A stretch of DNA of 64,000 nucleotides from Clostridia bacterium (GTDB lineage Bacteria; Bacillota; Clostridia; Oscillospirales; Acutalibacteraceae). The translations under genes and the position numbers were made by a program. This document shows, piece after piece, positions 26,643 to 37,837 of the stretch (the first letter of the stretch is position 1; the number at the start of each line of letters is the position of its first letter). The stretch spans positions 124,001-188,000 of the forward strand of contig JAFXGK010000007.1 of NCBI GenBank assembly GCA_017513245.1. Reading direction: 5' to 3'. The notes beneath the pieces were generated by a model. It saw only the letters and a program-made list of their open reading frames with translations, had not been told where the DNA came from and did no database searches.

Positions 26643-28028
26643 TTAATATTCGCCGTAGTAGGTGAGGTAGTTATACTTGGTTGCGGTACAGATGGGGCCG
26701 GGGTAGTCGCTGCCCTCGGTCGAGTGGTGGCGCTCTTCCATCTGCTTGGTGGTCATATTGAAGTAGAAGTGGTAAGCATCGTCGGGTGCGGAGCCGATCG
26801 GGTCGTCAAAGGTTATATCACAGGTGTACCAGTCGCCGTCGATTTTAACGGCGTTCCACTTGTGGCCGCCGCCTGCATCGCCGACTATGCCGGTGCAGTT
26901 GATGCCAACGCGGTGGCACAGCGTCTGGAAAGCCTCGGAGTAGGATTCGCACACGCCGTAGCCGTTAACCAGTATGCCGTAGGAGTTCCAGTTGTCCTCG
27001 CAGACACCGTTCCACTTGGCGCCGAGGTTATAGTGGCTGTTCTTTAGTATATAGTCGTAAATCAGTCGCTCTTTTTCAACTTCGGGAGCATCGCCGGGAA
27101 TGGTGGAAACGATATCGTTTACCTTCTTGTCGAAGACGGCCTTCTTGGCTAAAATGCTGGCCTTCAGTTCATCGTTGAGAGTGGGAATCTTCGAGCCGTA
27201 GTTGCAGAAATTAACACCGTCGGAGTAGCAGAACATAATTTCAACGACGTCGCCGCGGCGGAAAAGAGTAAAGGTGTTGCCGAGATAGAAGTGTTGCGGA
27301 TTATCGAACATGTAGGTGAAGTAGATGTAGTAGTTGCGGCCTTCGCCAACCTCTTTGTCGAGCACAACCGAGGGCTCGAGCGAGTTTATGGCCTCGTCGA
27401 TGGCAAGGTACCACTGCTTTTGCTCGGCATTAAGGGCGGAATAAAGGTAATTATCGGTCACCTTAAGAGCAGTATGCTGCTGGCCGGTGGTATAGGTATG
27501 GGTCTTGTTGCTGGGCTTCACTTCGGGAGCAGGAGCGGGAGTTTCCTCCTCGGGCTCGGTAGGCTCTGTGGGAGTCTCGGGCTCCTCGGGCTCCTCGGGC
27601 TCTTCGGGTTTTTCAGGCTCTACCGGTGCCTCGGGTTCTTTTTCGGGCTCGGTGGGAGTCGGAGTAGGAGTAGGTGTAGGCTTAGGAGTCGGCTTTACGG
27701 TAGGAATAGCGGGCTTTACGGTTGTGTCGGGCTTCGTGGGAGTAGGCTCTTTGGGAGTCTCGAGCTTAACGGTAATCGCGCCGCCTTTTTCCTCCTTAAG
27801 CGAAACGTCGTAGCCGCCGTCCTCTAAACGGTCGGCGAACTCTTCCATGCTCGATACGTCGTCAAACGATACGTCCGAGCTTGTTACGTCGCTTATTGTA
27901 GGTAAAAAATCCGATGGAGTGCTAATTTCGCTGTCGGTAACCGCCGCATCCGAAACTGGCTTTGCGGTGCAGGCTGTAAGCGACAAGAGCGTTGCCGCCA
28001 AAAGAATTAATGCTAATGTTTTTTTCAT
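26643..28028 (-). CDS. Lipoprotein with transglutaminase-like domain
   Basis: 461 residues. A lipoprotein signal (LLAATLLSLTAC, Cys20) is followed by a Ser/Asp-rich region, then a Pro/Thr/Glu-rich stalk at about 95-175 (repeated PTPTPTP and EEPEEPE units). A globular part ends in a transglutaminase core: Cys in NGYGVCESYSEAF, His in GGGHKWNAV and Asp in YTCDITFDDP. Such domains act as peptidases or crosslinkers at the cell surface. The gene is divided from the sigma-factor gene by only 115 bases that contain a promoter-like sequence shared with the second lipoprotein. It is probably co-regulated by that sigma factor. Confidence 0.86.
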   Translation of the reverse strand: MKKTLALILLAATLLSLTACTAKPVSDAAVTDSEISTPSDFLPTISDVTSSDVSFDDVSSMEEFADRLEDGGYDVSLKEEKGGAITVKLETPKEPTPTKPDTTVKPAIPTVKPTPKPTPTPTPTPTEPEKEPEAPVEPEKPEEPEEPEEPETPTEPTEPEEETPAPAPEVKPSNKTHTYTTGQQHTALKVTDNYLYSALNAEQKQWYLAIDEAINSLEPSVVLDKEVGEGRNYYIYFTYMFDNPQHFYLGNTFTLFRRGDVVEIMFCYSDGVNFCNYGSKIPTLNDELKASILAKKAVFDKKVNDIVSTIPGDAPEVEKERLIYDYILKNSHYNLGAKWNGVCEDNWNSYGILVNGYGVCESYSEAFQTLCHRVGINCTGIVGDAGGGHKWNAVKIDGDWYTCDITFDDPIGSAPDDAYHFYFNMTTKQMEERHHSTEGSDYPGPICTATKYNYLTYYGEY

Positions 28029-28068
28029 AAATTAAAACCCCTTTATTAGGTAATGTTTTCGGCCTTTC

Positions 28069-28133
28069 TTGGCCCTTACACTAATAAAGGGGTTTTGAAG
28101 TTTGATTTGGTTTTATATTTTTGAAAAATTTTT
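28069..28133 (-). promoter_or_regulatory. Shared promoter-like element, copy A
   Basis: Read on the minus strand: AAAAATTTTTCAAAAA, AAAACC, exactly 18 bases, then CCTTTATTA and GTGTAAGGGCCAAG. The same blocks at the same spacing precede the other lipoprotein gene (31256-31317). It is likely a promoter for the ECF sigma factor encoded between them. Outer sequences AAAACCCCTTTATTAG and its inverted copy near 28033-28047 could form a leader hairpin. Confidence 0.62.
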
Positions 28134-28143
28134 AAGAAGTTTT

Positions 28144-30471
28144 TTACGGAGCCACGGTCACGTTTCCGTTATCCGCTGTTGCGGCCAGTTCATCGAGGTA
28201 ATCGGAGTTGCCCGAAAGCACAATGGGCAGAACAGTTTCCTTAAAGCAGCCGTCAAGGTTGCTGCCGTCTTCGTCGGGCGCAGGGTTTGCGTGGATAACA
28301 ACCTCGCCTGTAAGGGAGGTGCAGCCCATGAACGCGACGTTCATCCAGGTAACGGTGCTGGGAATAACGGGAGCCTTGGTAAGCGAGGTACAACCCTCAA
28401 AGGCGCCGTACATCTCGGTAATACCCTCGTGCAGCTCGGGCGCAGACGTAAGACCGCTACAGCCGCGGAAGGTCTGCGTAAGGTCCACGAGACTCTTGGG
28501 TAATACGGGGGGCTTGGTTATAGAGGTGCAACCAAAGAAGGTGTTGGTGGCCCAACGGAGATCGGGCGGCAGTACGGGCGCCTCCTTGAGCGATTTGCAC
28601 TGCGCATAGGACCAGCCTGAATAGATTACCGAGCTTGGAATTTCGGGCGAGTAGAGCATATTGCTGCAGCCTGCAAAGGTGTGAACGACCGATCCGACCG
28701 GATCACCGTTGATTTCCGATAAAATCGGCTCGTAGGAGGTTTTGGTCATATCTTTTACCCTCGGCGTCCACATACCGGCATAGGTTTCGTTCATAAACCA
28801 GCCGCGGTCCTGCGCGGCATCGTATTCGTTGGCAGGATAATATTCATACATACCGCCGTTCATATAGGTGTAGTCGGCGGTTATCAGCTTGTCGCCCGCC
28901 TGCGGGGTGGCGGTTATCACGTCACCTGAGCGATAGGTCTGTCCCGAAACGGTAACGTAGGTAGCGCCCTCGGGCACGGTGTACGAGGGCTTAACGTTAA
29001 GCTCGTCCTGCCCGTTGTGTGTGGCTAAGCCGCGCCTCGAGACAAAGAGGGTAATATGCCAGTACGCTTCAGCCTTGTCGAGCTGCATAATAAGGGGCTC
29101 GTTTGTGTCCTTTCTTGTAAAGAAAAGACGATAGGAACTTTCTGACACCTCGGATAGGCTTGTAAGGCTGTATACGCTCGCATATGCCGTTCCGGGCGTT
29201 TTCGTGAATATGTAATCTTCGCCGCTTTTGGTAACCGAGGCCTCGGTAAGGGAGTCGGGGTCGAGTTCGCGGCCGAAGATGTTATATACGGTGCTTTTTA
29301 ATCTTTCCAAAGATATTGTATTATCGGCGCGGTGCGCCATCAGAGTATACGAGAAGATAACCATATCATCGGCCGAGAGTTCACTCACGTCAGAAAAAGT
29401 GGGGAACTCGTGTCCTGTTTGACTGAAATAACGGTTAAGCGCGTGAGTAAAAAGTTTCGCCGTCGCGTCAACCGAAAGATCGGGATTTAGGAGTAACGGT
29501 ATTGTTGCGGTTGTATCCTCGTCACGGGGTACGTCTACCTCCTCATCCGTAACGGTGGGAGCAGGGTCGTCCTTATTCGTGAGGATAACGGCGGTTGTAG
29601 TGCCGCCTATTACGATAGCGGCGGCCACAATACCTGCAACTATTTTTGCGGTAATGCCGGTAGCGGCTGCGGTCGCGGCCGTGGCGGTAACGGTGGTCAC
29701 AGTGCCTGCAGCAGCGCCTGCGGCAGCCCCTGCACCTGCGGCGGCGCCTGCCGATGCGGCGGCCGAAACCGTAACGCCCGTAGCAGCCGAAACACCCTCT
29801 GCCAACGCGGCAGCCTCGGCTGCCGAGAGTGCGCTGACTGCGCCGTCGGCCATAAGCCAACGGATAAGACCGAACATGCTGAATGCGCCAAGCGGAATGC
29901 CGGTTTTCTTTTGATAATCGTCGGCCGATTTTTTAAGCGACTTTCGGGCGTAATTGAGGCGGCTCTTAACCGTACCCTCGCTTACACCCTGAATGATTGC
30001 GATATCCTTAACCGGCACGTCATCGAAATAGCGCAAAATTACGGCCGAGCGCTGCTCTTCCGATAATTCGTCGAGCATTTCGAGCAGCGTTCTTTTAAGC
30101 TCGTCGTCATCAAGTGCCTCTTCGGGAATAAATTCGGACGACTCTTCCTTGAGGTTATCAAAAATAGTGCCGCCGTCTTCGTCCTCGTCGACTATAACGT
30201 CCTTCTTCTTTCTGAAGTAGCGCGTGCACTGGTGGTAGGCAATCTGCTTCATCCAGGTCACGAATGCGGCAGGCTCTTTAAGATTGTCGAGCGAAGTAAG
30301 TATTTCTATAAAGGTTTCCTGCGTTATATCGCCTGCGAGGTCACTGTCCTTTACGGTTTTAAGCACAAAATAATGAACGTCTTCGTAAAATACTGTGAAA
30401 AGCTCGCTCTTTGCGTCTGCGTCACCGTTTTGTGCCGCGGTTACAAGTTTTACTAATTGTTCTTTTTCCAT
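28144..30471 (-). CDS. Membrane-tethered ECF sigma factor with extracellular repeat domain
   Basis: 775 residues. Residues 1-90 are sigma region 2 (GDITQETFIEILTSL, FVTWMKQIAYHQC) and 125-180 are region 4 (LSEEQRSAVILRYF, VSEGTVKSRLNYARK), the ECF pattern. A long Ala/Gly stretch (205-272) leads into a single membrane helix at about 273-298. Residues 299-775 should be outside. They include a globular part and six or so repeats of about 22 residues with the core TFxGCSxLxxxPxLP (about 600-720), like the BspA/DUF285 leucine-rich family. Normal ECF factors are about 170-200 residues and soluble. The preceding lipoprotein ends 34 bases upstream in the same direction. Confidence 0.88.
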   Translation of the reverse strand: MEKEQLVKLVTAAQNGDADAKSELFTVFYEDVHYFVLKTVKDSDLAGDITQETFIEILTSLDNLKEPAAFVTWMKQIAYHQCTRYFRKKKDVIVDEDEDGGTIFDNLKEESSEFIPEEALDDDELKRTLLEMLDELSEEQRSAVILRYFDDVPVKDIAIIQGVSEGTVKSRLNYARKSLKKSADDYQKKTGIPLGAFSMFGLIRWLMADGAVSALSAAEAAALAEGVSAATGVTVSAAASAGAAAGAGAAAGAAAGTVTTVTATAATAAATGITAKIVAGIVAAAIVIGGTTTAVILTNKDDPAPTVTDEEVDVPRDEDTTATIPLLLNPDLSVDATAKLFTHALNRYFSQTGHEFPTFSDVSELSADDMVIFSYTLMAHRADNTISLERLKSTVYNIFGRELDPDSLTEASVTKSGEDYIFTKTPGTAYASVYSLTSLSEVSESSYRLFFTRKDTNEPLIMQLDKAEAYWHITLFVSRRGLATHNGQDELNVKPSYTVPEGATYVTVSGQTYRSGDVITATPQAGDKLITADYTYMNGGMYEYYPANEYDAAQDRGWFMNETYAGMWTPRVKDMTKTSYEPILSEINGDPVGSVVHTFAGCSNMLYSPEIPSSVIYSGWSYAQCKSLKEAPVLPPDLRWATNTFFGCTSITKPPVLPKSLVDLTQTFRGCSGLTSAPELHEGITEMYGAFEGCTSLTKAPVIPSTVTWMNVAFMGCTSLTGEVVIHANPAPDEDGSNLDGCFKETVLPIVLSGNSDYLDELAATADNGNVTVAP

Positions 30472-30504
30472 AAGATCTCCTTATAAAAATCGGATACGTT
30501 TCGG

Positions 30505-31221
30505 TTAGTTTACCTTGTCAAAGCCAATCTGGTAGGTAAGGCCAACACCATCGGTCAGGTCAGCGTTTGCGTGAATTACGGTGTCGGGAAGGAAACGGAA
30601 GGTATGAATACGGTTGTAGTAGGGGTCGATTGTGGGGATACCGGTGCTTTCAAATACTGCGGAGGCGATAAAGCCCTTTTCTTCGGTGGAAACCGTGAGG
30701 TATCTTACGTGAATGTTTTGAACGGGAACGTCACAGCCGTTAATAACGTAGGCTTCAACGCAAAGGACGTTGCCCTCCCAGTAAACGTGCTTGGGACGAA
30801 TATCAACCTGACCTGCGCGGAAGCTTGTGTTGCTGCCGAAACATTCGTTTTTAACTGCAGGCTTGGAAGAGGTTGCCGCAGGCTTCGAGGAAGATACGGG
30901 CTTGGACGAAGTTGCCGCAGGCTTAGAAGAAACCGCGGGCTCGGAAGATACCGAAGGCTTGGAAGATACCGCAGGCTTGGAGGACTCGGGTTCCGCAGAA
31001 GATACGGGCGCTTCGGAAGATGCGTCAGGCTCTTCAGCGTCGGGAGTTTCGGGTGCTTCGGGCCGGTCAATTTCGATGTCAACGTTAACGTCTGTGTCAG
31101 CGTTTTCGGATGACGTGTCAACGTCCTCGATAGAGCCGGTCGGCACCTCGGCCGAGTTCTTGCATGCTGCAAAGGAAAAGATGAATACGAGTACGAGTAG
31201 TAAAGAAATAAGTTTTTTCAT
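30505..31221 (-). CDS. Lipoprotein with Ser/Pro-rich stalk and SLAP-like C-terminal domain
   Basis: 238 residues. The lipobox FSFAAC puts the lipid on Cys20. Residues 21-125 are low-complexity: an acidic part, then a stalk of SSKPA/SSKPV units. The C-terminal 110 residues contain RPKHVYWEGNVLCVEAYV, then a conserved-looking VQNIHVRYLTV and a late TFRFLPD, a pattern that reminds me of SLAP-type surface domains; this is not certain. It is the first gene of the operon with the tethered sigma factor and has the shared promoter-like element ahead. A role in envelope sensing or as regulon member is inferred. Confidence 0.8.
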   Translation of the reverse strand: MKKLISLLLVLVFIFSFAACKNSAEVPTGSIEDVDTSSENADTDVNVDIEIDRPEAPETPDAEEPDASSEAPVSSAEPESSKPAVSSKPSVSSEPAVSSKPAATSSKPVSSSKPAATSSKPAVKNECFGSNTSFRAGQVDIRPKHVYWEGNVLCVEAYVINGCDVPVQNIHVRYLTVSTEEKGFIASAVFESTGIPTIDPYYNRIHTFRFLPDTVIHANADLTDGVGLTYQIGFDKVN

Positions 31222-31255
31222 GGTTGTTTTCTCCTCAAAAAAATTTTTAGGGTCT

Positions 31256-31317
31256 TGCCCTACGTTAATAAAGGGTCAAAACAACCACGTTAGGTTTTAA
31301 TTTTTTGAAAAATTTTT
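31256..31317 (-). promoter_or_regulatory. Shared promoter-like element, copy B
   Basis: Minus strand: AAAAATTTTTCAAAAAA, AAAACC, 18 bases, CCTTTATTA, ACGTAGGGCAAG. It matches copy A at 28069-28133 in four blocks at the same distances, while the 18-base spacer differs. It drives the lipoprotein-sigma operon, hence probable autoregulation. Confidence 0.62.
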
Positions 31318-31335
31318 TAAAAACTCATTTTTCGA

Positions 31336-31364
31336 TGTACAAAACGCCGCAAATAATATATAAT
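31336..31364 (+). promoter_or_regulatory. Promoter of the flavodiiron gene
   Basis: TGTACA (31336-31341) and TATAAT (31359-31364), spacer 17 bp. It is divergent from the lipoprotein-sigma operon. Confidence 0.65.
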
Positions 31365-31418
31365 AAGTATAAAACGAAATTCGCTGTTTTGCAACCTGTA
31401 TTTGGAGGTATATATCCG

Positions 31419-33209
31419 ATGAAAATAACAAATGATATAAAATACGTCGGCGTTAACGACCATAAAATCGACCTTTTCGAGGGTCAGTACGTCGTTCCCA
31501 ACGGAATGTCCTACAATTCCTACGTGATTTTGGACGAAAAAATCGCCGTAATGGATACCGTCGACGCCGCCTTCACCCACGAATGGCTTGATAATCTGCA
31601 AACCGCTCTCGGCGGTCGTACCCCCGATTATCTTATAGTTCAGCATATGGAGCCTGACCATTCGGCCAACATTATGAACTTTGTAAAGACCTATCCCGAC
31701 GTTACCGTCGTTGCTTCTGCCAAGGCTTTTGCGATGTGCAAAAACTTCTTCGGCACCGACTTTGAGGACAAGCGTCTTGTAGTGGGCGAGGGGGATACCC
31801 TTTCGCTCGGCCGCCACAATCTTACCTTTGTTACCGCGCCGATGGTGCATTGGCCCGAGGTAATAGTAACCTACGACAGCACCGATAAGGTGCTCTTCTC
31901 GGCCGACGGATTCGGCAAGTTCGGCGCCCTCGACGTAGAGGAGGATTGGGCCTGCGAGGCTCGCCGTTATTATATCGGCATAGTCGGCAAATACGGCGCT
32001 CAGGTTCAGGCACTGCTTAAAAAGGCGGCGGGACTTGATATTGAGATAATCTGCCCCCTGCACGGACCCGTGCTCTCTGAAAACCTCGGTTATTATATAG
32101 GCCTTTATAACACCTGGTCGAGCTACAGCGTTGAGGAAGAGGGTATAGTGATTGCCTATACCTCGGTCTACGGCAACACCAAAAAAGCCGTGCTTCGTCT
32201 GGCCGATATGCTGCGTTCGCGAGGCTGCCCCAAGGTTGTCCTTAACGACCTTGCCCGTTGCGATATGGCCGAGGCGGTTGAGGATGCTTTCCGTTACAGC
32301 AAACTCGTCCTCGCAACCACCACCTATAACGCCGAGATTTTCCCCTTTATGCGCGAGTTTATAAACCACCTTACCGAGCGCGGCTATAAAAACCGCACCG
32401 TAGCGCTTATAGAAAACGGCAGTTGGGCGCCTATGGCTGCCAAGGTGATGAAGGAAATGTTTGCAAAAAGCCAGAACATCACCTTCGCCGACAACACCGT
32501 TAAGATTCTTTCGGCCTTAAACGAAGAATCGAGCGAGCAGCTTAATGCCTTGGCCGACGAGCTTTGCCGCGAGTATCTTGCCCGTCAGGACGAAACCGCC
32601 AACAAGCAGGATTTTTCGGCGCTGTTTAACATCGGCTACGGCCTCTACGTTGTAACCTGCCACGACGGTAAAAAGGATAACGGTCTTATCGTTAACACCG
32701 TAACCCAGGTAACCGACACGCCCAACCGCGTTGCCGTTACCATCAACAAGGCAAACTATTCTCACCACGTTATAAAGCAGACCGGAAAAATGAACGTAAA
32801 CTGCCTCACCGAGGAGGCCCCCTTCTCGGTTTTCGAAACCTTCGGCTTTACAAGCGGACGCAACAATGATAAGTTTGCAAACTGCACACCCGGTCGCTCG
32901 GATAACGGCCTTATCTTCCTGCCGCGTTATATAAATTCGTTTATGTCCTTAAAGGTTGAGGACTACGTTGACCTTGATACCCACGGTATGTTTATCTGCA
33001 GTGTAACCGAGGCTCGCGTGCTGTCCGACCGCAAGAGCATGACCTACACCTATTACCACGAAAACGTTAAACCCAAGCCCGAAACCGAGGGCAAAACGGG
33101 TTACGTTTGCAAGATTTGCGGATACGTTTACGAGGGCGAACCGCTGCCCGATGATTTTATTTGTCCTTTATGCAAACACGGCGCTGCCGATTTTGAAAAA
33201 ATAAACTAA
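31419..33209 (+). CDS. Flavodiiron protein with flavin-reductase and rubredoxin domains
   Basis: 596 residues in four domains. 1-240: metallo-beta-lactamase-like diiron domain with ligands His76, Glu78, Asp80 and His81 (HMEPDH), His144, Asp163, His215. 242-390: flavodoxin ([12 protein letters not shown] binds FMN). 399-550: flavin reductase-like domain ([19 protein letters not shown]). 561-596: a short rubredoxin with CKIC and CPLC pairs. The protein should reduce O2 to water and/or NO to N2O, with its own electron-delivery modules. The longer frame from 31305 overlaps the divergent promoter region; TTTGGAGGT fixes ATG 31419. A second rubredoxin gene follows. Confidence 0.92.
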
Positions 33210-35823: not shown

Positions 35824-35878
35824 ATATATATTGCTATTAGGTTTTCGCTATGGTATTCTAAAGGCAGGAGGGATGGAT

Positions 35879-37837
35879 ATGACAAAGAAAAACAAGATTA
35901 TCATTATAGCAACCACGGTGCTGCTTGTAATAAGTCTTGCAGTCGCAATATTCTTTATAGCAAAGCCCCCCAAGAAGACCGCTAGCGCCGACTTGTCGAG
36001 CGATTTGTCGAGCGTCGTTACCGAGAGCGATAAACCTACGGCTTCAGCACCGAGCGAAAAGCCGCAGTCGAGCGAAAAACCGCAGTCGAGCGAAAAGCCG
36101 CAATCAAGCGCGCCACAGCCGACCGTTACCCATATAAACACCCCAAAAGGCTGGAATGACCGCTCTGACAAAACCAAAAACGCAGGTGGCCATAAGTGGC
36201 CCGAAGTTTTGCCGACCGATATGGAGGCAGGAACGCCGATACAGGCAAAGGGCGAGATGGTAGGCGAGCGTTTTGTGCTTATGCAGGCGCTTAATTCCTC
36301 GCTCCCGTTTTCGGTTGAGTGCCATATAGAAAACAATAAAATCACCGCCGTCCTGCCCGCAGGCACGCATATCGACGCGCTTGTGCCTGAGTTTTCCTTC
36401 GAGGGCGCGGTAACGGTAGCGGGCAAGGAGGTTAAAAGCGGCAAAAATAGTTATAACTTCACCGAGCCTGTCGAGTTCACCGTCAAAAAGGGTGGCAAGA
36501 AAACCGTCTACACCGCGTATATTATGACGCTCGATACGGGACTTCCTTCAATATCGGTAAGCGTTGACGGAGACAAGGATATCACGAGCAAAACCGACTA
36601 CGTAAAGTGTCACGTCTTTGCAGGCGGCGGCAACAGCGCCGACAGCGACTATTCCTTCGCCAAAAACGAGCTTATATCAGCCGAGGGAAAAATTAAGGGC
36701 CGCGGCTGGACCAGCTGGTACTATTACCCCAAAAAGAGCTACACCCTAAAGCTTGAAGAAAAACAAAAATTCCCCGGTCTTCCCGCCCACAAGGAATGGG
36801 TCATCTCGGCCAACCACGCCGACCGTACACTGATTAGAAACGCCGTAGCGATGGAGCTCGCCCACGCAGTAAAGATGGAAACCGTTATGGACGTGCGCTT
36901 TGTCGATTTATGGGTTAACGGCTATTATGAGGGAAGTTATCAGCTGATAGAAAAAATCGAGGACGATAAAGACCGCGTTAATATCACTAAATTCAGCGAA
37001 AACCTAAAGCCCGAGGAAATAGGCTTTATAGTAGAAACCACGGGTCACAACAAGGCCGTGGGCGAATTCGGCACGTGGACCAACGGGCAGGACGCCGACC
37101 GACCCTCGCTTTGGCAGAAGCTGACCGATAAAATAACCCTCGACCCCATAAGCGGCGATATGTTTTTCGATTCGCTGCACTACGACGGCATTATCTATAA
37201 CGTCAAAAAGCCGTCCGACAGCAAGCTGCTTGCGCTCGATAAGGCAAGCCGCGACAAATACCTGAACTACATTTACAACTATATGGACGATATGGAGGCG
37301 GCCATAAAATCGCGCGATTTCTCGGCCGCGAGCAGGTATCTCGATATGGATGCCATGGCGCGCTGGTACATAGTTGAGGAACTCACGATGAATACCGATT
37401 CGCGACTTCATTGCTCCTGCTATATGTATAAGGATGCAGGCGGCAAGATGAAGATGGGACCCGTTTGGGACTTTGACCTCGGTCTCGGCAACGGCAAATA
37501 CGCCAACGAAAACCACGCTTTTAACACCTATTTGGACGGTTCTCGCTGGTTTGCCGACCTTACGGCAATGCCCGAATTCCGAGCCGCTGTTAAGCGCGTT
37601 TGGCAGGATTCTCTCGGCAGGATACAGCTTCTGCCCAAATTTATTGCCACCGCATCGGGCAAAATGGAAAAGTCGCAAAGGGCAAACTATTCGCTTTGGT
37701 CCATCACGGGCTACGCCGAGCACACCTATGCCCGCACGACCGAGGGGATAGCCACGTACCACGAGCAAATCGAATATCTAACCGATTTTGTAAACTACCG
37801 CATAAGCTATATGAACGACAAAATCTCCGCTTGGTAA
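35879..37837 (+). CDS. CotH kinase family protein, membrane-anchored
   Basis: 652 residues. An uncleaved signal anchor (about 6-28) is followed by a Ser/Pro stalk with repeated SSEKPQ units (about 50-85), then a small beta domain ending in KKTVYTAYIMTLD. The CotH kinase domain follows (about 225-600) with GRGWTSWYYYPKKSYTLKL, HADRTLIRN and the metal-binding WDFDLGLG. CotH proteins are atypical kinases, first known from Bacillus spore coats; exported relatives phosphorylate surface proteins or act near polysaccharides. AGGAGG sits right against ATG 35873, so ATG 35879 is preferred. A terminator follows. Confidence 0.87.
   Translation: MTKKNKIIIIATTVLLVISLAVAIFFIAKPPKKTASADLSSDLSSVVTESDKPTASAPSEKPQSSEKPQSSEKPQSSAPQPTVTHINTPKGWNDRSDKTKNAGGHKWPEVLPTDMEAGTPIQAKGEMVGERFVLMQALNSSLPFSVECHIENNKITAVLPAGTHIDALVPEFSFEGAVTVAGKEVKSGKNSYNFTEPVEFTVKKGGKKTVYTAYIMTLDTGLPSISVSVDGDKDITSKTDYVKCHVFAGGGNSADSDYSFAKNELISAEGKIKGRGWTSWYYYPKKSYTLKLEEKQKFPGLPAHKEWVISANHADRTLIRNAVAMELAHAVKMETVMDVRFVDLWVNGYYEGSYQLIEKIEDDKDRVNITKFSENLKPEEIGFIVETTGHNKAVGEFGTWTNGQDADRPSLWQKLTDKITLDPISGDMFFDSLHYDGIIYNVKKPSDSKLLALDKASRDKYLNYIYNYMDDMEAAIKSRDFSAASRYLDMDAMARWYIVEELTMNTDSRLHCSCYMYKDAGGKMKMGPVWDFDLGLGNGKYANENHAFNTYLDGSRWFADLTAMPEFRAAVKRVWQDSLGRIQLLPKFIATASGKMEKSQRANYSLWSITGYAEHTYARTTEGIATYHEQIEYLTDFVNYRISYMNDKISAW

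Follow-up and report, generated by a model that had tools for sequence, protein, structure and literature searches.

The window analyzed here is a stretch of 64,000 nucleotides from a Clostridia bacterium (Acutalibacteraceae; assembly GCA_017513245.1, contig JAFXGK010000007.1), and all coordinates below are positions within it. On its reverse strand lies an open reading frame (ORF) of 775 amino acids, P0001 (28144..30471), in which an extracytoplasmic function (ECF) sigma factor, a single predicted membrane helix and an outside domain (ectodomain) follow one another in one chain. Sigma region 2 (residues 25-90; 30202..30399) matches the Pfam family PF04542 (Sigma70_r2) with 38.8 bits (cut-off 24) and sigma region 4 (residues 128-179; 29935..30090) matches PF08281 (Sigma70_r4_2) with 56.1 bits (cut-off 25.7). 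P0001 also scores 103.2 bits against the sigma70-ECF model TIGR02937 (cut-off 42.9). We take the presence of both regions above curated cut-offs (Pfam, TIGR02937) as the mark of an ECF sigma factor, and the best match of this part among solved structures is SigW (5wuq, 3.1e-17). Region 4 is followed by a hydrophobic segment (residues 183-208; 29848..29925) that is conserved in the family described below, a candidate for an internal inhibitor or for a helix lying along the membrane. Then come a linker of 67 residues (209-275; 29647..29847), 60% of which are Ala or Gly, and the predicted membrane helix with the Lys that precedes it (residues 276-295; 29587..29646), called from hydropathy. The helix is the one strong hydrophobic stretch of the chain (residues 277-295, Kyte-Doolittle 2.13); two weaker ones (206-224 and 233-251) reach only 1.3.

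The outside part comprises 480 residues (296-775), about 138 of which belong to BspA-type repeats. Its first portion (residues 319-492; 28996..29517) matches P0001 alone among the loci compared. The second (residues 493-597; 28681..28995) is common to relatives from G002, a genome of the same genus, and from SIG573 and G256, and to no others among those loci. The third (residues 596-733; 28273..28686) consists of six leucine-rich repeats of 23 residues. We assign them to the BspA type by their tandem 23-residue units, although the Pfam score for LRR_5 (23.9 bits) lies below the cut-off of 27.7, and the stretch matches the solved BspA-type proteins 4fs7 (2.6e-12) and 4gt6 (1.7e-8). The first-pass annotation of this DNA had read sensor, anchor and sigma factor as one molecule, with sigma regions 2 and 4, a long Ala/Gly linker and a single membrane helix; Pfam, composition and hydropathy place all of these in a single frame. 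It had also given the protein about 475 outside residues with BspA/DUF285-like repeats. The length and the BspA type hold, while the repeats are confined to residues 596-733 and DUF285 is absent from the Pfam matches of P0001.

Is the one-chain frame real? In G002, the same order of sigma part, helix and ectodomain is found in one open frame, with 64% identity to P0001 over residues 1-321 and 37% over residues 494-720, and the gene order there (lipoprotein, fusion, transglutaminase-like lipoprotein) is that of the window. Because this design and this three-gene order recur in G002, the sequence comparison confirms the frame of P0001 as genuine, neither a chance reading nor an assembly error. 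With an orthologue of the same layout and the same neighbors in a second assembly, and with 54 further proteins that share the plan, a fusion of two genes by faulty assembly or annotation is vanishingly improbable. The close relatives in G002, SIG573 and G256 are all fused; none is split into a separate sigma factor and membrane protein, an arrangement that the first-pass annotation had named as evidence against its reading. Another genome of the genus, G001 (76% complete), has no match to P0001 at E 0.001.

The first gene of the operon (30505..31221, reverse strand) encodes a lipoprotein of 238 amino acids, with a lipobox recognized by eye and a weak SLAP_DUP match that stays below the cut-off. 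In G002, SIG573 and G256, a homologue of it precedes the fusion. Downstream of P0001, on the same strand, a gene for a transglutaminase-like lipoprotein of 461 amino acids (26643..28028; PF01841, 37.1 bits, cut-off 23; lipobox by eye) has a 59% identical copy in the same place in G002. No anti-sigma gene adjoins P0001 in the window: both same-strand neighbors encode exported lipoproteins. The gene beyond the operon head (31305-33209) also has a counterpart in G002, with one other gene in between. A few genes away, on the opposite strand, lies a gene for a CotH kinase-type protein (35831-37837; PF08757, 136.9 bits, cut-off 23.8).

A family of one-chain sigma proteins

A scan of contigs for close relatives with the whole of P0001 found none; when A1, an alignment of residues 1-310 in five rows, was used in its place, 21 loci were returned, some of which are not fusions. 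We searched 394 genomes of the order with A1, scoring up to five candidates per genome, so that the counts are lower limits. At least 42 stop-free matches extend past model position 205, in at least 30 of the 394 genomes and in frames of 333-1303 amino acids. Forty of the 42 have E-values of 3.7e-47 or below, and the other two, both in G317, have 1.9e-32 and 3.4e-31; the best short-frame match that ends near position 190, the pattern of an ordinary ECF sigma factor, reaches 1.5e-37. Matches past position 205 with internal stops (G156, G247 and G248) were left out. Two loci interrupted within the sigma part (L130, in G156, and L099) are excluded from all counts. Among the matches listed for 398 genomes of the phylum, only two further frames exceed 500 amino acids, and hence the family is concentrated in this order within the genomes sampled. 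One of the two (L138, from the same class but another order) has the post-sigma4 segment followed by one strong helix; the other (L140) has helices and a different linker. No NCBIfam model of the fused family is found among the 25 of 133 shown.

From 100 distinct sigma-matching frames we kept as members the 56 whose match reaches at least position 205, whose helix starts between positions 240 and 330 and whose E-value is below 1e-30, and dropped 44. Forty-two of the 56 come from the search of the 394 genomes. The helix is part of the family profile and a condition of membership. The first-pass annotation had proposed a search for the order sigma2, sigma4, membrane helix and repeats; these 56 proteins are of P0001's plan, with ectodomains of various kinds. 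Mapped on a quick tree with 97 sigma parts, membership requires two state changes, against 31.3 in shuffles, which suggests that the 56 members form close to one clade; the forks that unite them have moderate support (SH-aLRT, the Shimodaira-Hasegawa-like approximate likelihood ratio test, 82-85). The sole stand-alone sigma factor within the clade on the tree, L095, is distant, and no gene for a membrane partner adjoins it. Two loci with a helix and no linker match (L046 and L056) are not counted; they lie near the family on the tree, on long branches. Long frames in relatives that match in the sigma part alone, for example L050, L052-L055 and L057-L059, at first seemed to share the design but were set aside, as hydropathy shows no helix near the sigma part. 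The order thus also has ECF sigma factors with long C-terminal extensions and no helix near the sigma part. The named records among the members are metagenome-assembled genomes labelled Oscillospiraceae, Ruminococcaceae, Clostridiaceae or Clostridia, several of them from goat or roe deer gut.

Which parts of the chain are kept? Regions 2 and 4 are both matched in all 56 members. The mean pairwise identity is 0.333 in region 2, 0.424 in region 4 and 0.337 in the post-sigma4 segment. In the linker, which spans 38-110 residues between this segment and the helix, identity is 0.203 against 0.155 expected from composition; its composition is kept and its sequence hardly. The helix reaches 0.376 against 0.170 expected, about the level of region 2. 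Lys276, just before the helix, is present in 56 of 56 members and Gly289 in 49, and Ala and Gly make up a fraction of 0.423 of the helix, compared with 0.212 in 563 further helices predicted in these loci. Grouping at E < 1e-5 divides the ectodomains into 28 clusters, some of the chains being cut by contig ends. LRR_5 repeats occur in ten members, Big_2 in three, CAP in two, WG repeats in two and a copper amine oxidase N-terminal domain in one, and many ectodomains match no named domain. Repeat-type ectodomains are scattered over several places of the tree. In one genome, two neighboring members (L077 and L123) are separated by sigma branches of about 0.03, and their ectodomains belong to different clusters. 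As the sigma part, the post-sigma4 segment and the helix are conserved while the ectodomains split into 28 clusters, the plain reading of these sequences is that sensors have been swapped on a fixed sigma-helix chassis. A search for an autocleavage Asn-Pro pair, found in 22 of the 56 members, is uninformative.

Two features of the surrounding genes are worth recording. Small ORFs of 43-67 codons that have a sequence resembling a ribosome site terminate at the fusion start or close to it in L073, L079, L080, L081, L084, L098, L104, L108, L117, L118, L119, L120, L121 and L133. Some ORF shorter than 100 amino acids lies just upstream of the sigma start in 23 of the 56 members, in some surely by chance. 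Many of the small ORFs look by eye like two short helices and possibly encode a small partner protein. In L044, L104, L105, L107 and L108, the next same-strand gene, close behind the fusion, encodes 496-1065 amino acids with an N-terminal hydrophobic stretch; these products are likely to be exported and are possibly targets or partners.

A promoter-like element in the window's subclade

A spaced sequence was first noticed upstream of the operon-head lipoprotein gene in the window, G002 and G256. In the form of AAAACC-N17-CCCTTnAT, it has eight matches in the window with at most two mismatches (2.61 expected), two of them exact: one at the operon head, on which the pattern was partly built, and one, predicted, in the gap between the sigma and transglutaminase-like genes. 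The copy in the gap (28087..28127, reverse strand) has no mismatch to the first pattern (at 28084-28114) or to the final form. A longer form has seven matches over the genome with at most two mismatches, against none for the backward control, and it predicted the intergenic sites C26, C51 and C35 without mismatch; two other sites, C2 and C46, lie within ORFs and were dropped. We write the element as TTTTnAAAAAnATAAAACC-N16-CCCCTT. Its final form, TTTTnAAAAAnATAAAACC-N16-CCnCYT, gives seven genome sites with up to three mismatches allowed (none has three) and none in the control. Besides the two window sites, these are a tandem pair before the gene of a 148 amino acid protein with four predicted helices, one site before a 97 amino acid one-helix protein, one before a 211 amino acid lipoprotein, and C26. 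The products of a gene behind the element in the window's genome (L159:3141-3434) and of one behind a site in G256 (L197:2115-2963) both have His-rich tails; we do not claim that they are homologous (E 0.011), and a metal-related role common to both is conjecture.

The element co-occurs with the sigma subclade of the window. A site at no more than two mismatches occurs in 25 of the 394 genomes of the order, and only two genomes have more than one: the window's own genome, G000, with six (C46, inside an ORF, among them) and G256 with four. Each of the remaining 23 has a single site, and no genome has more than two in the backward control. G000 and G256 carry the two best-scoring fusions. In a scan of ten chosen genomes with ATAAAACC-N16-CCCCTT, all ten exact sites are found in G000 (three), G002 (two), G256 (four) and G411 (one, before the fusion L117), each of which has a fusion of the window clade, and there is no exact site in G001, G003, G017, G412 or G166. 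An exact element is also found at the RGIG3144 locus, and the SIG573 locus has two sites with one mismatch each. When gaps of 16-18 from AAAACC to CCCTT were scanned, every exact match had a gap of 17 (16 when counted to CCCCTT), and the sequence of the gap is free. A/T tracts lie upstream of the element. Of the 12 leaders compared, eight precede a lipoprotein or a one-helix protein (lipoboxes partly by eye): those of both window sites, of C51 and C35 in G000, of both G002 sites and of the SIG573 and G256 operon heads. In its constant spacing, its A/T tracts and the AAC core of its left half, the element resembles an ECF promoter. A bipartite 4-mer search of 58 upstream regions for a family-wide promoter returned mostly A-rich or T-rich pairs, and the upstream regions of eight other subclade groups, inspected by eye, show no shared element of this sort.

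Relation to known sigma factor systems

In canonical ECF systems, such as RpoE/RseA and SigW/RsiW, a sigma factor is paired with a membrane anti-sigma protein, and a signal from outside acts across one membrane. The P0001 family would likewise carry an outside signal to a sigma factor across one membrane, and the sigma part of P0001 is nearest to SigW (5wuq). It differs in its neighbors: where canonical systems have an adjoining anti-sigma gene, P0001 stands between genes for exported lipoproteins.

One close likeness is to IutY (Pseudomonas putida, ECF243). According to the part of the source available, its single chain, on which Prc and RseP act, runs from an N-terminal ECF sigma factor on the inside through one transmembrane segment to an outside domain; unlike in P0001, this domain is a periplasmic anti-sigma domain, which acts together with an outer-membrane receptor (PMC5411451). 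The P0001 family is distinguished further by its exchangeable ectodomains and its Clostridia lineage, and cleavage, demonstrated for IutY, is a prediction for P0001. The anti-sigma domain of IutY is of the FecR type; no FecR-type domain is matched by P0001 in Pfam at E 0.1, nor does one occur among the 25 of 28 families listed for the 56 members. In Actinobacteria, ECF52 proteins such as SCO4117 hold a sigma factor, a zinc finger, a transmembrane segment and a carbohydrate-binding module in one chain (PMC5826349, as far as the accessible portion goes). For ECF52, ECF48 and ECF53 alike, the available portions of two reports describe a sigma factor, a helix and an outside extension, with a zinc finger that is likely the anti-sigma element and with proteolytic activation proposed (PMC5826349, PMC8999054). 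P0001 and the 56 members share with these groups a helix behind the sigma part, called from hydropathy and itself a condition of membership, and an outside domain. The zinc finger that accompanies the helix in those groups has no counterpart by motif: HxxxCxxC, the mark of a zinc-finger anti-sigma domain, is found in none of the 56 members within the first 300 residues. The SigI/RsgI systems of Clostridium thermocellum proceed through autocleavage, RseP and ClpXP steps, and RsgI paralogues, like the P0001 family, combine a shared inside part and helix with divergent outside sensors (PMC12203970, in the part available). They consist of two proteins with the sensor on the anti-sigma factor, whereas in P0001 the sigma factor itself carries the sensor, and RsgI is not among the listed Pfam and TIGR hits of P0001.

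The first-pass annotation had called P0001 a candidate for an undescribed signalling system. The principle of sigma factor, helix and outside domain in one chain is already known from IutY, ECF52, ECF48 and ECF53, so that its interpretation is partly supported. We found no description of the Clostridia one-chain family in the open-licence literature searched, and the lineage, the swappable sensors and the element appear to be undescribed in the literature that can be searched. An ECF group number for the family may exist in the 2021 classification.

Proposed release of the sigma part and its candidate targets

It is tempting to hypothesize that P0001 converts a signal outside the cell into transcription of a small envelope regulon. 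The one helix would tether its ECF sigma part to the membrane on the inner side, with the C-terminal part outside as the sensor. Since Lys precedes the helix and the net charge is +1.2 before and -0.1 after it, the sigma part is predicted to lie inside. At rest, tethering and probably the hydrophobic segment 183-208 would keep it off RNA polymerase. The trigger could be a ligand, or the protein could lose its contact to the envelope or to a partner lipoprotein; a site-1 protease would then trim the ectodomain, RseP would cut the Ala/Gly-rich helix and the sigma part would be free. The free sigma factor would transcribe from TTTTnAAAAAnATAAAACC-N16-CCCCTT its own operon, in a positive loop, the transglutaminase-like lipoprotein gene and a few membrane protein and lipoprotein genes. 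We consider this reading, a signal outside that frees sigma by RseP-type proteolysis to act through the element on a regulon including its own operon, probable, with a good deal of room for doubt.

Several points weigh against release by cleavage. The membrane helices were called from hydropathy alone. The genome has an RseP gene (TIGR00054, 227 bits, cut-off 147.55), the site-2 protease candidate that the first-pass annotation had suggested looking for. To our knowledge, however, RseP is near-universal, so its presence says little, and there is no direct sign that the sigma part is cleaved. ToxR and CadC work from the membrane without cleavage, and P0001 might too, with the ectodomain altering the state or pairing of the chains, the linker providing reach and RNA polymerase being met at the membrane; such a protein would be suited by the single helix and by the linker, 38-110 residues long in the 56 members. 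We consider it unlikely, for the helix is conserved beyond its composition (0.376 against 0.170) and rich in small residues, although part of that conservation may reflect selection of members by a profile that contains, and therefore favors, conserved helices. In addition IutY, a studied protein of the same layout, needs RseP (PMC5411451, in the part available).

If cleavage does release the sigma part, what would become of it? In the RsgI system, the fragment that RseP leaves goes to ClpXP (PMC12203970, in the part available). In a fusion, ClpXP would destroy the sigma part unless it were halted, and we therefore propose the Ala/Gly linker as the stop. A Gly-rich tract in DnaX stops ClpXP and leaves a partial degradation product, small residues being gripped less well (PMC6677533, in the part available). 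After the RseP cut, ClpXP might thus degrade the stub, starting at the Ala-rich end that the cut creates, and halt at the linker before the folded region 4, leaving an intact sigma factor; the linker is suitably placed for this, but its mixed Ala/Gly tract differs from the Gly-rich tract of DnaX.

The reading of the element as a promoter of the freed sigma factor meets difficulties of its own. Its right half is, we assume, not of the usual ECF type. The site at the operon head (31271..31311, reverse strand) has two mismatches to the final form, and that form was shaped on sites already known, so its seven sites describe rather than test it. Behind C26 there is no convincing ORF. With one mismatch allowed, the scan of the ten genomes gave 27 matches against nine in the backward control; G257, with two fusions of the window clade, has no exact element in that scan; and, scattered one-mismatch matches apart, the gap scan finds the element in loci of the window's subclade only, not in the rest of the family. 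Finally, the complementarity of the CCCCTTTAT half to ribosome sites is greater for its own gene (mean -11.2 kcal/mol) than for others (mean -8.57 kcal/mol), with a permutation p-value of 0.00015 over 12 leaders, some of them orthologues, and a pure promoter does not explain this.

The pairing would fit an element that is transcribed as a leader RNA and governs translation or termination, the sigma factor having other targets. Such an RNA would also fit the leader hairpins: four of the five leaders tested have z-scores of -2.2 to -2.7, the window head only -0.8. The pairing and leader observations cover 28029-28110 of the window and leaders in L042, L132, L097, L158 and L159. Terminator-like hairpins with a T run, recognized by eye, lie directly behind two sites in the window's genome (C26, L157:3392-3500, and C9, L226:1765-1860), and short RNAs are possible there. 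Pairing is strong at several sites whose upstream gene is co-directional and weak at the operon heads of the window and G002. There are exceptions, strong pairing in L159 with a divergent upstream gene and weak pairing at the G256 head with a co-directional one. We nevertheless think it quite improbable that the element is a leader RNA of this kind: its gap is fixed in length and free in sequence, A/T tracts lie upstream, site counts go with the sigma subclade and no Rfam family reaches its cut-off in 27900-31600. Because of the leader hairpins, the pairing with the ribosome site and the terminator-like hairpins, we are more cautious about reading the element purely as a promoter, and suggest that its CCCCTTTAT half may silence read-through RNA. 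The -10 box would then also form the left arm of a hairpin silencing such RNA, and the targets would be expressed only from their own sigma promoter. A joint reading, in which a modular family of gut Clostridia combines a sigma factor, a cleavable helix and swapped sensors (repeats, CAP, WG, Big_2 and others) with release through partial degradation by ClpXP and with a -10 box hairpin, is doubtful as a whole, and we offer it as speculation.

A sigma part that has lost its role in transcription and now serves a surface repeat protein as membrane anchor or adaptor would agree with the different rates of sigma part and ectodomain (64% against 37% identity over the two segments compared with G002), but it is very improbable with regions 2 and 4 above cut-off in P0001 and matched in 56 of 56 members, and with a promoter-like element that tracks the sigma subclade.

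Signalling from outside to a sigma factor usually takes a sigma factor and a separate anti-sigma protein, and the P0001 family has no anti-sigma domain that can be detected from its sequence. With sensors that can be exchanged on a single sigma-helix chassis, the family also lends itself to use as a sensor device made of one gene. For the gut Clostridia, in which few genetic tools are available, the candidate element makes it testable with a simple reporter how a tethered sigma factor is held and freed and to which signals these bacteria respond.

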